64,000 nt of DNA. Source: Bacteroidales bacterium. Its GTDB lineage: Bacteria; Bacteroidota; Bacteroidia; Bacteroidales; UBA932. This document shows positions 33,297-63,935 of this stretch, piece after piece. A program made the translations under genes and the position numbers. The stretch lies in contig JAGAIM010000072.1 of NCBI GenBank assembly GCA_017626555.1, positions 157,194 through 221,193 on the forward strand. The letters run 5' to 3'. How positions within the stretch are numbered: the first letter of the stretch is position 1; every line of letters begins with the position of its first letter. The notes under the pieces were generated by a model. That model was not told the DNA's origin and did not search any database. It was given only the letters and a program-made list of their open reading frames with translations.

Positions 33297-34523
33297 TTAT
33301 AATAGGTTTATAAATTCAATATACGCTTCTATTCCCTTTCGGATTTCTTCTACCAGGACATATTCGTCCTTCTTATGCGAACGTCCTGAATCGCCAGGCC
33401 CAATCTTGATCGCATCGCAGGTGATCCTCATCCAATCGGATGTCGTAGGTGATGAAAATGTCTCTATGCCAAGTGTTTCTGCAGCCTTTTGAAGAGGGGA
33501 GTCCACGAATGTCGCGCTTGAGCGGTTGGCAAGGTTGCGTGGCCTCAGTTCGCTTGTGAATATGTCTTGCAGTTCCTTCAAGATCTCCTCATTGGTGTAT
33601 TGCTCCGTAGGACGAATGTCTATGACGAAGTCACATCTGTCAGGGATGACATTGTGTGCTGTACCGGCAGAAATCTGGGTTACGTTCAGATTGACCTTGC
33701 CCATACGAGGCGATATTCTGCTGAAGTTATGCTCCCTCAGTCTGTTTATGTCGTCCAAGGCTATGTACAATGCATTCTTTCCCTCATTTCTTGCAGCGTG
33801 GCCGCTTGTTCCGTGCGCTGTCGCATCAATCACCAGAAGCCCTCTTTCCGATGTCGCAGCCTTCATCCCTGTCGGTTCTCCGATAATAGCGGAATCGACC
33901 TTTGACTCCAGTTCCGGCCATAGTCCTGTCATCCCGTTATTTCCGGATCTCTCCTCCTCGCAGGTCAGAACCAGCATCAGATTCGGTCTTCCGCCTTTTC
34001 CGGCGATACCGGTGGGGTGATGGACCGTGCTACCCCCCTGGCCGCAGGGGGAGGGACCCAAGCTTGCTTGGGAGGGGTTGTCCATCACCCCACCGGTATC
34101 GCCGGAAAGGTGCTGGAAGTATCTGTATGCTGCAATCATTGCTACAACTGATGCTCCATCGTCATTGCTTCCGAGTCCTGCCACAATCTCCTCTGCCTCT
34201 GTAGGTCTGCCGATGATACTGCTTATATTCTCGGCGACTTTCTTATAATCAGGAGTATATGGGTCGAAACCATATTCCGTACTGGGACTTACCGTATCGA
34301 TATGGGCGCACAGCATAAGTGTAGGCCTTGATGTATCCGTAATATGCTCAGCGATAATATTGTTTCCTTTCCGCTGGTGCACGATTCCATTGGCCTCAAG
34401 CCAGGAACATATATGACTGCAAACCTCTTCCTCTTCGAAAGAAGGTGACGGTATGGCAATCATCTCCTTAAGCAGATCTATTGCATCTGCAGTCAGCCTA
34501 TCTATATTCAATATGTTTCCCAT
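33297..34523 (-). CDS. argE: M20-family acetyl/succinylornithine deacylase with palindromic insertion
   Basis: This is a 408-residue metal-dependent M20 deacylase. Zn ligands and catalytic residues are in CAHIDTVSPS (His, Asp), GSNDDGASVVAM (Asp) and TCEEERSGNNG (Glu-Glu). In the succinyl-type pathway it releases ornithine from its N-acyl derivative; the operon also contains argF', so the real substrate is probably N-acylcitrulline. Residues ~139-176 (LSGDTGGVMDNP...TVHHPTGIAGKG) are an insertion relative to Bacteroides homologues as I remember them. They are encoded by a 112-bp palindromic element at 33997-34108. The insertion keeps frame and lies before the Glu-Glu strand in a loop of the catalytic domain. 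Confidence 0.88.
   Translation of the reverse strand: MGNILNIDRLTADAIDLLKEMIAIPSPSFEEEEVCSHICSWLEANGIVHQRKGNNIIAEHITDTSRPTLMLCAHIDTVSPSTEYGFDPYTPDYKKVAENISSIIGRPTEAEEIVAGLGSNDDGASVVAMIAAYRYFQHLSGDTGGVMDNPSQASLGPSPCGQGGSTVHHPTGIAGKGGRPNLMLVLTCEEERSGNNGMTGLWPELESKVDSAIIGEPTGMKAATSERGLLVIDATAHGTSGHAARNEGKNALYIALDDINRLREHNFSRISPRMGKVNLNVTQISAGTAHNVIPDRCDFVIDIRPTEQYTNEEILKELQDIFTSELRPRNLANRSSATFVDSPLQKAAETLGIETFSSPTTSDWMRITCDAIKIGPGDSGRSHKKDEYVLVEEIRKGIEAYIEFINLL
33997..34108. repeat. GC-rich palindromic element A, inside argE'
   Basis: Perfect 29-bp inverted repeats (33997-34025 and 34080-34108) enclose two small hairpins: CCCCCTG/CAGGGGG at 34034-34051 and CCCAAGC/GCTTGGG at 34057-34072. The core resembles elements at 38157-38200 and 44653-44697. 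Confidence 0.9.
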
Positions 34524-35519: not shown

Positions 35520-36473
35520 TTACAGGCCACCTAAAATCTCTTTCAGGATAGTCTGTGCCGAAACCACGCGGTTTGCGGCTTCCGGGATGACCAGTGACTG
35601 GGGGCTTTCAATCACTTCATCTGTCACGATCATATTCCTTCGTACTGGCAGACAGTGCATAAAATACGCATTGTTGGTCAAAGCCATCTTCTCCGCATCT
35701 ACAGTCCAGTCACGGTCTGTGCACAATATCTTGCCGTAATTGTCTCCGCTGTAGGCAGACCAGTTCTTCGCATAAATGAAATCCGCTCCCTCGAATGCTT
35801 TTCTCTGGTCATATTCGATGCGTGCGCGTCCTGTAAATGCAGGATCCAGTTCATATCCGCGAGGATGGGTGATCACAAATTCATAATCTGTCATATTTAT
35901 TCCCTCTGCGAATGAGTTCGGAACCGCCTGGGGCAGAGCCTTCGGATGAGGCGCCCAGGTCATTACGATCTTAGGTTTCTCCACCTTCTTGTATTCCTCG
36001 ATGGTTATCAGGTCCGCAAATGTCTGTAGAGGGTGTCTTGTTGCTGCTTCCATACTGAATACAGGCTTGCCGGAATATTTGATGAACTGGTTGATTATAA
36101 CCTCGTTATAGTCATCTTCTTTGTTCTCGAACTTTGCGAATGCACGGACACCGATGACATCGCAGTAGCATCCCATCACCGGGATCGCCTCGAGCAGATG
36201 TTCCGGTCTGTCGCTGTCCATTATGACGCCTCTCTCTGTTTCAAGCCTCCACGCTCCCTGGTTCACGTCGAGGACTATGACGTTCATTCCGAGATTCATA
36301 GCCGCCTTCTGGGTGCTGAGCCTTGTACGCAGGCTGGAATTGAAGAAAATCATCAGCAGGGTCTTGTTCCTGCCCAGTTCCTGATCCGCGAAGGGATTTT
36401 CCTTTACATATTTTGCCGCTTCAAGAGCCTTTGAAAGGTCTCCAAGTTGTGTTATCGATGTGAAATGTCTCAT
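35520..36473 (-). CDS. argF': N-succinylornithine carbamoyltransferase
   Basis: This is a 317-residue transcarbamoylase of the Bacteroides type. Carbamoyl-phosphate loop is FFNSSLRTRLSTQKA; other motifs are VFSMEAATRHPLQTFADLI, MTWAPHPKALPQAVPNSFAE and HCLPVRRNMIVTDEVI, all characteristic of the succinylornithine or acetylornithine enzymes rather than classical OTCase (HCLP without the DxxxSMG loop). It makes N-acylcitrulline. The start at 36473 (MRHFTSITQLGDL) is taken because the upstream 21 codons are translated from a palindromic repeat. Confidence 0.93.
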   Translation of the reverse strand: MRHFTSITQLGDLSKALEAAKYVKENPFADQELGRNKTLLMIFFNSSLRTRLSTQKAAMNLGMNVIVLDVNQGAWRLETERGVIMDSDRPEHLLEAIPVMGCYCDVIGVRAFAKFENKEDDYNEVIINQFIKYSGKPVFSMEAATRHPLQTFADLITIEEYKKVEKPKIVMTWAPHPKALPQAVPNSFAEGINMTDYEFVITHPRGYELDPAFTGRARIEYDQRKAFEGADFIYAKNWSAYSGDNYGKILCTDRDWTVDAEKMALTNNAYFMHCLPVRRNMIVTDEVIESPQSLVIPEAANRVVSAQTILKEILGGL

Positions 36474-36485
36474 AATTTCATTTTT

Positions 36486-36512
36486 AGACCCCTCGTCAAG
36501 CTCGGGGTGACA
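36486..36512 (-). repeat. TGTCA-type short palindromic repeat, copy 3
   Basis: The minus strand reads TGTCACCCCGAGC-TTGAC-GAGGGGTCT with CCCC/GGGG arms. It spans the end of argD: the repeat supplies the last codons and the TGA stop of argD. Confidence 0.7.
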
Positions 36513-37635
36513 GGTCGGTGAGTTCTTTCCAAGCATTTACAAATGATTCGGCTGTTTCCCTTGATACGGTAAGTGACGGCAGGAGGCGTATCACGCCGGC
36601 ACCGGCTGCTCCGGTAAAGAAATGTTTCTTGAACAGAAGCCTGTCGCGCAGGCCGATATATTCCTCATTCAGTTCAAGACCTATCATCAGGCCTTTGCCT
36701 CTGTATTCCTTGATGGCCTTGTCGTCTCTGAATGCTTCTGCAAAATATTTTCCGATTTCAGCAGCATTCTCAATAAGATGTTCATTCTCAATAATATCCA
36801 ATACCGCAAGAGCCGCTGTGCAGGCCAGATGGTTTCCTCCGAAAGTGGTGCCCAGCATTCCGTATGAAGCCTTGATGGCAGGACTGATGATCACTCCACC
36901 GATAGGGAATCCGTTACCCATACCCTTGGCCATAGTGACGATATCTGCCCTTACTCCATAATGCTGATGGGCAAAGAATTTTCCGGTACGCCCGTATCCC
37001 GACTGTATCTCATCAAGAATAAGCGCACAGCCATATCGGTCACAAATTCCGCGAAGCCCGTGGATGAAGTCTGCTGTAGGTTCGTATATTCCTGCCACTC
37101 CCTGGATGCCCTCGATTATAACTGCAGCAAAATCACCCTTTGACAACTCTGCAGAAACAGCCTCCAGATCATTTAGCGGCGCGAAAACGATATTTTCTGT
37201 AGCATTGAAAGGAGCCTGTATCTTAGGATTGTCTGTTGCAGCCACCGCACCGGATGTCCTTCCGTGGAAAGCCTTCCTGAATGCAAGCACCTTGGCCTTG
37301 CCAGTATGGAATGATGCCACCTTCAGGGCATTTTCGTTTGCCTCAGCCCCACTGTTGCAAAGAAACAGCGCATAATCCTCATATCCGCAGATCTTTCCAA
37401 GACGTGCAGCCAGATCTCTTTGAAGTGAATTCTGAACTGCATTCGAATAGAATCCCAATTTGCTCAACTGCTCGGAAATCATCTTCACATAATGAGGATG
37501 CGAGTGACCGACGGAAATCACAGCGTGACCGCCGTAAAGATCGGTATATTCCACCCCATCCTTATCCCACAATGTCGTATCCTGTCCCCTGACAGGCTCT
37601 ATATCCCATAAAGGGTAAACATCAAATAAATTCAT
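36496..37635 (-). CDS. argD: N-acylornithine aminotransferase
   Basis: This is a 379-residue class-III PLP aminotransferase. Motifs: LYGGHAVISVGHSHP, NSGAEANENALKVAS, AFHGRTSGAVAATD, LDEIQSGYGRTGKFFAHQ, and MAKGMGNGFPIGG with the PLP lysine. It transfers the amino group to N-acylglutamate semialdehyde. The start at 37635 (MNLFDVYPLWDIEPV) fits the family better than an ATG 33 bp upstream. The last codons LSPRA and the stop come from a TGTCA repeat, so the natural C-terminus has been replaced. Confidence 0.94.
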   Translation of the reverse strand: MNLFDVYPLWDIEPVRGQDTTLWDKDGVEYTDLYGGHAVISVGHSHPHYVKMISEQLSKLGFYSNAVQNSLQRDLAARLGKICGYEDYALFLCNSGAEANENALKVASFHTGKAKVLAFRKAFHGRTSGAVAATDNPKIQAPFNATENIVFAPLNDLEAVSAELSKGDFAAVIIEGIQGVAGIYEPTADFIHGLRGICDRYGCALILDEIQSGYGRTGKFFAHQHYGVRADIVTMAKGMGNGFPIGGVIISPAIKASYGMLGTTFGGNHLACTAALAVLDIIENEHLIENAAEIGKYFAEAFRDDKAIKEYRGKGLMIGLELNEEYIGLRDRLLFKKHFFTGAAGAGVIRLLPSLTVSRETAESFVNAWKELTDLSPRA

Positions 37636-43753: not shown

Positions 43754-44623
43754 ATGGGAAAAGAAAACAAGTCCGGGCTTTCTGAATCATTTGTCGTAGG
43801 GGTGATTGCTCTGGTATTCCTTATTGTGGGATATCAGACTGCTCTGTTCATTCATAATGCTGCCGTTGTCAGGATTGCGGCTGCCAGAGATGTACCGGAT
43901 ACGGTATATGTCTTCGGGAATGCAGTTCAGGGGCAGTCGTCCGACAGTGTACCTCATACGATAAGGCGGAATGCCACTCATTCAGCCCGAGTGCAGGCTG
44001 TGAGAGAAAATGTACCGAGAAAGAAGGTGGAGAGTTTCTTGTTTGATCCCAATACTGTTTCAGTTGATGATTTATGCCGTTTGGGCTTTACGGTAAAACA
44101 GGCTCGGAGTATTGATAAATATCGTTCAAGCGGAGGACGTTTCAGACGGAAAGATGATTTCAGAAAGTCGTATGTGGTATCAGACAGTATTTACAGGAGG
44201 CTTGAACCATATATAGATATTCCTCTTATCGATCTCAATACTGCCGATTCGGCAGCATTTGATGCTCTTCCAGGCATAGGAGGATGGTTCGCTTCCAAGA
44301 TGCTTGCACACAGGAAGGCATTAGGAGGATATTCCTATAAGGAGCAATTGATGGATATTTACCGTTTCGATCAGGAAAAATTTGATGGACTGAGCGACCT
44401 TATTGTCGTGAGTCCGGAAAACATTACCCCTTATCCATTATGGAGCCTGCCTGCTGATTCCCTCAGGCAACATCCATATATCGCAGATGATGAGACGGCT
44501 CGTGCCGTAGTCCTATTCCGTGACAATAATCCGAAAGAACTTTGGACAATAGTAGAACTGAAAAATGCTGGAGTCATAAGCGAAGACGCAGCATCAAGAC
44601 TGTCCCGCTGTATCCTGAAATAA
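43754..44623 (+). CDS. Membrane-anchored helix-hairpin-helix protein (ComEA-like)
   Basis: This is a 289-residue protein. The start at 43754 is chosen because the longer reading frame would run through the rsmI terminator. An N-terminal transmembrane helix (SFVVGVIALVFLIVGYQTAL) precedes several helix-hairpin-helix repeats: VDDLCRLGFTVKQARSI, IDLNTADSAAFDALPGIGGW-type and WTIVELKNAGVISEDAASRL. HhH motifs bind DNA without sequence preference; ComEA is the DNA receptor of uptake systems, but Bacteroidetes proteins of this type have not been proven to act so. It is convergent with recA. Confidence 0.8.
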   Translation: MGKENKSGLSESFVVGVIALVFLIVGYQTALFIHNAAVVRIAAARDVPDTVYVFGNAVQGQSSDSVPHTIRRNATHSARVQAVRENVPRKKVESFLFDPNTVSVDDLCRLGFTVKQARSIDKYRSSGGRFRRKDDFRKSYVVSDSIYRRLEPYIDIPLIDLNTADSAAFDALPGIGGWFASKMLAHRKALGGYSYKEQLMDIYRFDQEKFDGLSDLIVVSPENITPYPLWSLPADSLRQHPYIADDETARAVVLFRDNNPKELWTIVELKNAGVISEDAASRLSRCILK

Positions 44624-44732
44624 AACCGACAGACCGGTAACATAAAGGCGACGTGCCACCCCCGGCTAGGGGGTGCCTCCCGACAGGGAGGCGGGGGTCG
44701 CCGGAATGTTACCGGTCTGTCGGTTTTATTTC
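44617..44732. repeat. GC-rich palindromic element C between HhH gene and recA
   Basis: Perfect 27-bp arms (44617-44643 and 44706-44732) have A-rich and T-rich ends, so they may be a bidirectional terminator. Inside are GGCGAC/GTCGCC (44647-44652 with 44697-44702), CACCCCC/GGGGGTG (44657-44675) and GCCTCCC/GGGAGGC (44675-44692). This matches the nested structure of element A. Confidence 0.9.
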
Positions 44733-63857: not shown

Positions 63858-63935
63858 TGGTGGGAGCAGAGGGAGTCGAACCCCCGACCCTCTGCTTGTA
63901 AGGCAGATGCTCTAAACCAACTGAGCTATGCTCCC
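63858..63935 (-). tRNA. tRNA-Val (anticodon UAC)
   Basis: The minus strand folds as a cloverleaf: acceptor GGGAGCA with TGCTCCC, D-stem GCTC/GAGC, anticodon stem TCTGC/GCAGA with loop CTTACAA (anticodon TAC), T-arm GGGGG-TTCGACT-CCCTC. The 3' CCA is encoded (63858-63860). The gene is complete inside the window. Confidence 0.95.

Follow-up and report, generated by a model that had tools for sequence, protein, structure and literature searches.

Rickettsia palindromic elements (RPEs) are described as in-frame inserts of several metabolic and housekeeping genes that are unrelated to one another, truB among them (passages on RPEs in PMC10969869 and PMC3733652). REP sequences are dispersed hairpins tagged by GTAG or CGTC, and CGTC repeats are reported in Bacteroidetes in the part of PMC3733652 devoted to REPs. 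Template switching is described as homogenising the arms and inverting the spacers of inverted repeats (quasipalindromes), both in yeast coding genes (relevant sections of PMC8604942) and in RNA genes (those of PMC8794818). In mitochondrial coding genes of Nematomorpha, long perfect inverted repeats are present, and conversion is suggested as their maintenance in the passages of PMC6649704 on these palindromes.

The window analysed here is a stretch of 64,000 nt from a Bacteroidales bacterium (assembly GCA_017626555.1, contig JAGAIM010000072.1, positions 157,194 to 221,193), in which an argE′-like gene contains a palindrome with a two-hairpin core. In our preferred reading, given a probability of roughly 0.55, this palindrome belongs to a family of palindromic inserts that are dispersed within one Bacteroidales genus, probably selfish, and kept palindromic mainly by template switching.

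With RPEs, as far as the cited passages describe them, the family has in common a size of about 100-150 bp, the palindromic form, the in-frame position in unrelated genes and the (here presumed) tolerance as extra residues. However, in the present family the core alone is common, the arms are locus-specific and sharing of the whole palindrome was not encountered; moreover, matched arms persist here, whereas in RPEs the identity of the repeats declines over time according to the lines of PMC6649704 that mention them. The two groups belong to different phyla, and the likeness is one of features. The first-pass annotation of the sequence had pointed to RPEs, and this likeness holds in the sense of working like them, the inserts being in frame, presumably translated and present in several unrelated housekeeping genes; the family is like RPEs in effect. 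To REPs, as treated in PMC3733652, the family is similar in consisting of dispersed hairpins, some intragenic in frame and some near convergent gene ends, but REP stems are given there as 5-13 bp with the tag at one end, compared to a median of 25 bp for the outer stems here. By inspection no REP tag was recognised: the core begins with CGTG, and next to hairpin 1 stands CTAC, which reads GTAG on the opposite strand. The homogenisation of arms and the inversion of spacers known from quasipalindromes have their counterpart in orthologous arms that change together and in a spacer that is inverted between orthologues (the window's own pair excepted); in the cited sections, however, the subject is a process of mutation acting on ordinary inverted repeats, whereas here the spacer is formed by a core of 50-60 nt that is conserved and dispersed. 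Unlike the present inserts, the palindromes of Nematomorpha encode conserved protein in both arms, and the passages of PMC6649704 on them describe no dispersed core.

Structure of the insert in the argE′-like gene

The coordinates of the host gene and of the parts of the insert are given in Table 1. The gene name was taken from the first-pass annotation; the encoded protein matches the Pfam models Peptidase_M20 and M20_dimer, and the NCBIfam ArgE/DapE models match it below their curated cut-offs. The two arms are 100% complementary and 54 nt apart, and by arithmetic the insert comprises residues 139-176 of the 408-aa protein. For the minus strand a long stem with two hairpins was predicted at −87.4 kcal/mol; 200 dinucleotide shuffles had a mean of −51.1 kcal/mol, and none of them folded as well (z −8.8). 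The annotated perfect 29-bp arms enclosing two GC-rich hairpins in an open argE′-like frame were therefore exact by coordinates, complementarity and fold.

Table 1. Host gene and parts of the palindromic insert, with positions in the window.
Feature	Position	Strand	Basis
Host gene, M20-family deacylase (argE′-like), 408 aa	33297..34523	-	ORF open through the insert
Arm upstream with respect to the gene, 29 nt, roughly encoding LSGDTGGVMD	34080..34108	-	
Arm downstream with respect to the gene, 29 nt, inverted copy of the other arm without mismatches, roughly encoding VHHPTGIAGK	33997..34025	-	
Core, 54 nt, dispersed unit, written CGTGCTACC...GGGGTT, orientation opposite to the gene	34026..34079	+	
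Core hairpin 1, 8 bp with 4-nt loop, conserved part	34033..34052		Fold and copies found without the exact pattern
Core hairpin 2 (CCCAAGCTTGCTTGGG, 6 bp), varies between copies	34057..34072		Fold and comparison of copies

In the nearest solved homologue, the acetylornithine deacetylase 3ct9, chain residues 5-117 and 127-352 were aligned to query residues 5-132 and 179-405, and from the alignment gap between query residues 132 and 179 it follows that 3ct9 is without the insert. An Rfam search of the window gave just a tRNA (63861-63935) above the gathering score and none at the element, and in a search of 15 element loci all matches (weak miRNA models) were below the gathering scores; those at other loci were dismissed as chance hairpins.

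Upstream of argB and argE′, an ORF on the minus strand (35520-36536) starts with MLGKNSPTCHPELDEGSKNEIMRHF. Its first residues presumably resemble translated repeat DNA, and the true start may be a later ATG.

Distribution of the core

Three copies of the core are present in the source genome (222 contigs), the argE′ copy being one of them; their arms of 29, 28 and 31 bp are all perfect and all different, and the core is common to the three. The exact core pattern gave 81 matches in 33 of 400 same-genus genomes, including the three in the source genome, and the reversed pattern gave no match in the same 400. In a genome-contig collection the exact pattern was present in 93 stretches; among the matches listed (80 of the 93), all titles were those of Bacteroidales MAGs, and where a host was named it was a ruminant, mostly with caecum, colon or rectum as the site, while the SIG, NALB and SRR titles name none. 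From these listed matches and the copies of the same-genus genomes, at least 83 distinct copies were assembled (102 records minus 19 duplicates, with one stretch end giving no result), each of which comes from a genome of the same genus or a Bacteroidales MAG. As the exact pattern fixes hairpin 1, the conservation of this hairpin in the pattern-found set is by choice; it was also seen in copies found by BLAST without the exact pattern.

An ungapped arm score of at least 12 was obtained for 64 of the 83 copies, and for 1 of 410 decoy positions taken from these loci. Perfect arms of at least 20 were found in 27 of these 64, and the median arm was 25 bp. The other 19 copies have short or broken arms, several of them broken by indels as judged by eye and unscored. 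Related cores of other sequence (families b to f) likewise lie between locus-specific arms. For family b, six loci of one genome (L059-L063 and L073 in G007) carry nearly identical cores of 60-62 nt between arms that are almost perfect and yet differ greatly from locus to locus, most of these copies lying at gene ends. That cores recur between unrelated arms supports the preferred reading of a dispersed core with locus-specific arms. The repeated unit is therefore the 54-nt core and not, as first annotated, the whole 112 bp; the search for further genomic copies proposed in that annotation did yield them, both in the source genome and beyond, and features that it had not contained are the position of the arms outside the repeat, the occurrence of the core in both orientations to the gene and the joint change of homologous arms.

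A core search of phage and plasmid collections gave no match at the sensitivity used, the exact pattern had 0 matches in viral contigs, and no account of the core family was found in the open-access literature searched.

Insertion sites in housekeeping genes

Between the two halves of nine housekeeping genes lie 55 of the 83 copies (hutI 11, argE′ 9, aroE 9, miaA 8, lpxB 7, truB 5, aroK 3, tilS 2, folC 1), and all 55 are in frame, in a test that covered nine genes first seen with open frames and outside which the remaining 28 copies fall. The translated span is stop-free in 51 of the 55 genic copies, and the other four (L155, L143, L164 and L153) are within open ORFs. When the gene names were checked with half-proteins against NCBIfam, hutI, miaA, lpxB, tilS and folC exceeded the cut-offs, and truB, aroE and aroK were best matches below the cut-offs.

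The argE′ insert occupies one position in nine loci, between a helix ending with RYFQH and the strand NLMLVL, and in 25 other genus members covering the site it is absent and replaced by a short linker; this comparison drew on 30 loci listed from 61 genus genomes. The 38 residues are lacking in 3ct9 and in the 25 genus members, and on comparison with relatives they proved not to be universal, nine argE′ loci having a related core with different arms. With further copies found as well, neither of the two conditions under which the first-pass annotation would have given up the mobile-element idea was encountered, and its interpretation is supported. Of the proposed in-frame insertion, the net difference from empty relatives does keep the frame, but 112 itself is not a multiple of 3. 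The argE′ gene of L095 (G053) has a long segment of another kind, which follows the SGTNGMERVW region some 30 residues beyond this site. The arm pairing far above decoys, the in-frame position of all 55 genic copies and the nine filled and 25 empty argE′ sites support the reading as inserts.

The insertion point in aroE is identical in seven loci, which favours one ancestral event. At the place of GAAAAGCGTGCTACCCCC in filled loci, the aroE gene of G056 (L255) reads GAAAAGCATGCTTCCACC, which may be a copy that has collapsed or a remnant of the core. In lpxB of L121, a unit resembling LKTSIDTYADD is repeated several times in tandem in the frame beside the element.

The conserved frame also bears on two other explanations. 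A segment that is removed from the RNA or skipped by the ribosome, in the manner of an intron or a bypassing element, would have a precedent in the palindromic bypassed elements of yeast mitochondria cited in PMC6649704, as far as its passage on them goes; such skipping would not need the frame, which is kept in 55 of 55 cases at a chance of 1/3 each, and this explanation is highly improbable. A fold-back artefact of assembly or library might be suspected since all genomes are metagenome assemblies, the source genome being in 222 contigs. It is practically negligible given that the core recurs across assemblies and bins of different names, that its genic copies never leave the frame, and that orthologous copies have diverged arms in common.

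Changes of arms and core between species

For the comparison of arms within genes, the arms were anchored at the core and pairs with left arms at least 60% alike were taken. Comparable in this way were 57 of 153 within-gene pairs (85 with left arms less than 60% alike and 11 with short arms were left out), and they showed 318 two-sided versus 86 one-sided arm differences, the pairs sharing members and thus not representing independent events. For the 16 closest pairs, whose left arms agree by 80% or more, 41 two-sided versus 27 one-sided differences were counted. Two-sided and one-sided differences were 5 and 0 in hutI (L002/L108), 5 and 2 in aroE (L003/L132) and 7 and 0 in argE′ (L127/L130). 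The window copy and its closest argE′ orthologue (L001/L140) have 0 two-sided and 5 one-sided differences, which counts against arm correction; the arms of L140 are decaying without correction.

Relative to the ORF, the core is oriented with it in 31 cases and against it in 27. Between the source genome and SIG153, the cores in hutI (L002/L108) and aroE (L003/L132) are flipped, and the core in argE′ (L001/L140) is the same. Template switching explains matched arm changes and core inversion together, a mechanism taken over from the known process. According to the preferred reading, a two-hairpin core of 50-60 nt would sit between locus-specific inverted arms, genic copies would lie where frame and protein tolerate an extra 30-40 residues, and the insert would be translated as an extra loop, translation and tolerance both being suggested by the in-frame opening. 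After insertion, DNA polymerase would switch templates during replication and copy one arm onto the other, and the same switch could invert the core. The core itself may spread via a single-stranded DNA intermediate or by a template switch to another copy.

Several observations count against this reading. Besides the L001/L140 pair, the 85 of 153 pairs that were dropped weigh here, together with the 9.6% of between-gene pairs that also reach 60% left-arm likeness: either the arms of the dropped pairs turn over very fast, or some insertions were independent. Independent insertions that copy host flanks would also give two-sided differences. In addition, the orientation of the core is uneven within single genes (miaA 8/8 '+', aroK 3/3 '-').

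The mismatches within the arms were examined in both senses. In the sense of the gene, genic copies have 10 G.T and 18 A.C mismatches, which is not significant (p 0.18); without a gene-sense G.U excess, the matching of the arms is not due to pairing in the mRNA. Read along the core strand, G.T exceeded A.C mismatches with 28 versus 9 in family a (16 copies with arms shorter than 12 nt left out) and with 14 versus 1 in family f, the counts in family b being 2 and 1 (for both families, copies with an arm score below 12 were left out). There may accordingly be some selection on the folded core strand, whatever the direction of the gene. Since the excess follows the core strand and not the gene, single-stranded DNA fits better than mRNA; pure template switching does not predict the excess, which in this respect counts against the preferred reading. 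A functional RNA structure, with pairing selected for mRNA regulation or processing, is very unlikely: the strong fold, the covarying arms and the core-strand G.T excess would agree with it, but the core is found in either orientation to the gene, A.C outnumbers G.T in the gene sense (not significantly), and no Rfam family is above the gathering score at the element.

In a phylum distant from Rickettsia, palindromic inserts that keep the frame of essential-type genes are presented here on the scale of a whole family and in dozens of orthologous copies. They also show that 30-40 extra residues in such enzymes can be driven by DNA and not be adaptive. Two questions become testable with it, namely whether compensatory changes in long stems arise by template switching or by selection, and how small palindromes spread without an evident transposase.

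Origin of the arms

In a host-copy test, the insert was replaced by one of its arms and the similarity to empty genes was compared with that of 60 shuffled arms each. The empty genes (14 lpxB, 10 aroE and 12 argE′) were picked by hand, and G056 aroE with its possible core remnant (L255) as well as aroE loci with long linkers were left out. The codons of the left arm resemble empty lpxB in L156, L160 and L121 (z 3.8-4.7) and empty aroE in L003, L132 and L186 (z 3.1-4.8), and more weakly in L148 (2.4) and L115 (2.1). By the same test, a host-like left arm was supported neither in lpxB L151, L153, L182 and L116 and aroE L141 and L178 nor in any of the nine argE′ loci, in eight of which the armless join of the flanks scored best. 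Some right arms were above the shuffles too (L160 z 3.4, L003 2.1, L001 2.0). An upstream arm resembling host sequence, with the second arm resembling its inverted copy, is thus seen in aroE and in part of the lpxB copies, and not in argE′.

These results would be expected in part from repeated independent insertion by a machinery that makes an inverted copy of a host segment, so that the arms are locus-specific from birth. The three lpxB and five aroE loci (two weakly) with host-like left-arm codons speak for it. The four lpxB, two aroE and nine argE′ loci lacking such support, the right arms that exceed the shuffles and the single insertion point of seven aroE loci, which favours one ancestral event, speak against it, as does the intergenic copy L060, where eight relatives have few bases between the genes and both arms are therefore extra; this copy was the sole clean case among four family b loci aligned, with relatives not visibly closest to G007. 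Altogether, this explanation is rather unlikely. Host copying may thus have produced the arms of some copies, but is not established as a rule.

A new type of element is put forward tentatively as well, in which the hairpin core would turn neighbouring host sequence into an arm by inverted copying and would then keep the palindrome and flip the core by template switching. If this were true, every copy would wear arms of host sequence, and the strand that has to fold as single-stranded DNA would be indicated by the G.T excess of the core strand.

Search for a mobilising enzyme

Y1_Tnp genes are present in 46 of 61 genus genomes, with three in the source genome. A non-autonomous MITE- or REP-type unit moved by a Y1 (RAYT-like) transposase on a single-strand hairpin, with arms diverging later, would make use of such genes; recognition of one folded strand fits the core-strand G.T excess, and intragenic REPs, one of them in Rickettsia truB, are described in the REP part of PMC3733652. 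However, when 24 Y1 loci (two overlapping others) were searched for the core, a single match of 16 nt with an E value of 0.10 was obtained, and a RAYT gene flanked by the same repeat, as in GTAG-type REPs, was not found among them. Apart from that match no core lay near the 24 loci, and no linkage to Y1 transposases was found there. At one Y1 locus examined (L213 in G026), the transposase gene is located between two other long inverted repeats (1374-1483 and 2684-2761), which are unrelated to the cores. The nearly identical family b cores between unrelated arms in one genome also imply a mobile unit that excludes the arms. Movement by a Y1 transposase with later divergence of the arms is consequently unlikely.

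Other palindromes in the genome

The window contains a further palindrome of family f at 44617-44732, with perfect arms of 27 bp around a different two-hairpin core. It is placed precisely between two convergent ORFs, which end at 44623 and, in the case of the RecA-like one, at 44732, and is perhaps a two-way terminator. Family f has at least 15 matches in the source genome (26 candidates, 15 scored) and is present in 11 of 61 genus genomes. A census of inverted repeats in 452,749 bases of the source genome G000 (the window and L364-L383; net arm at least 16, gap at least 30) yielded nine, namely two of family a, two of family f, one of family d and four others.
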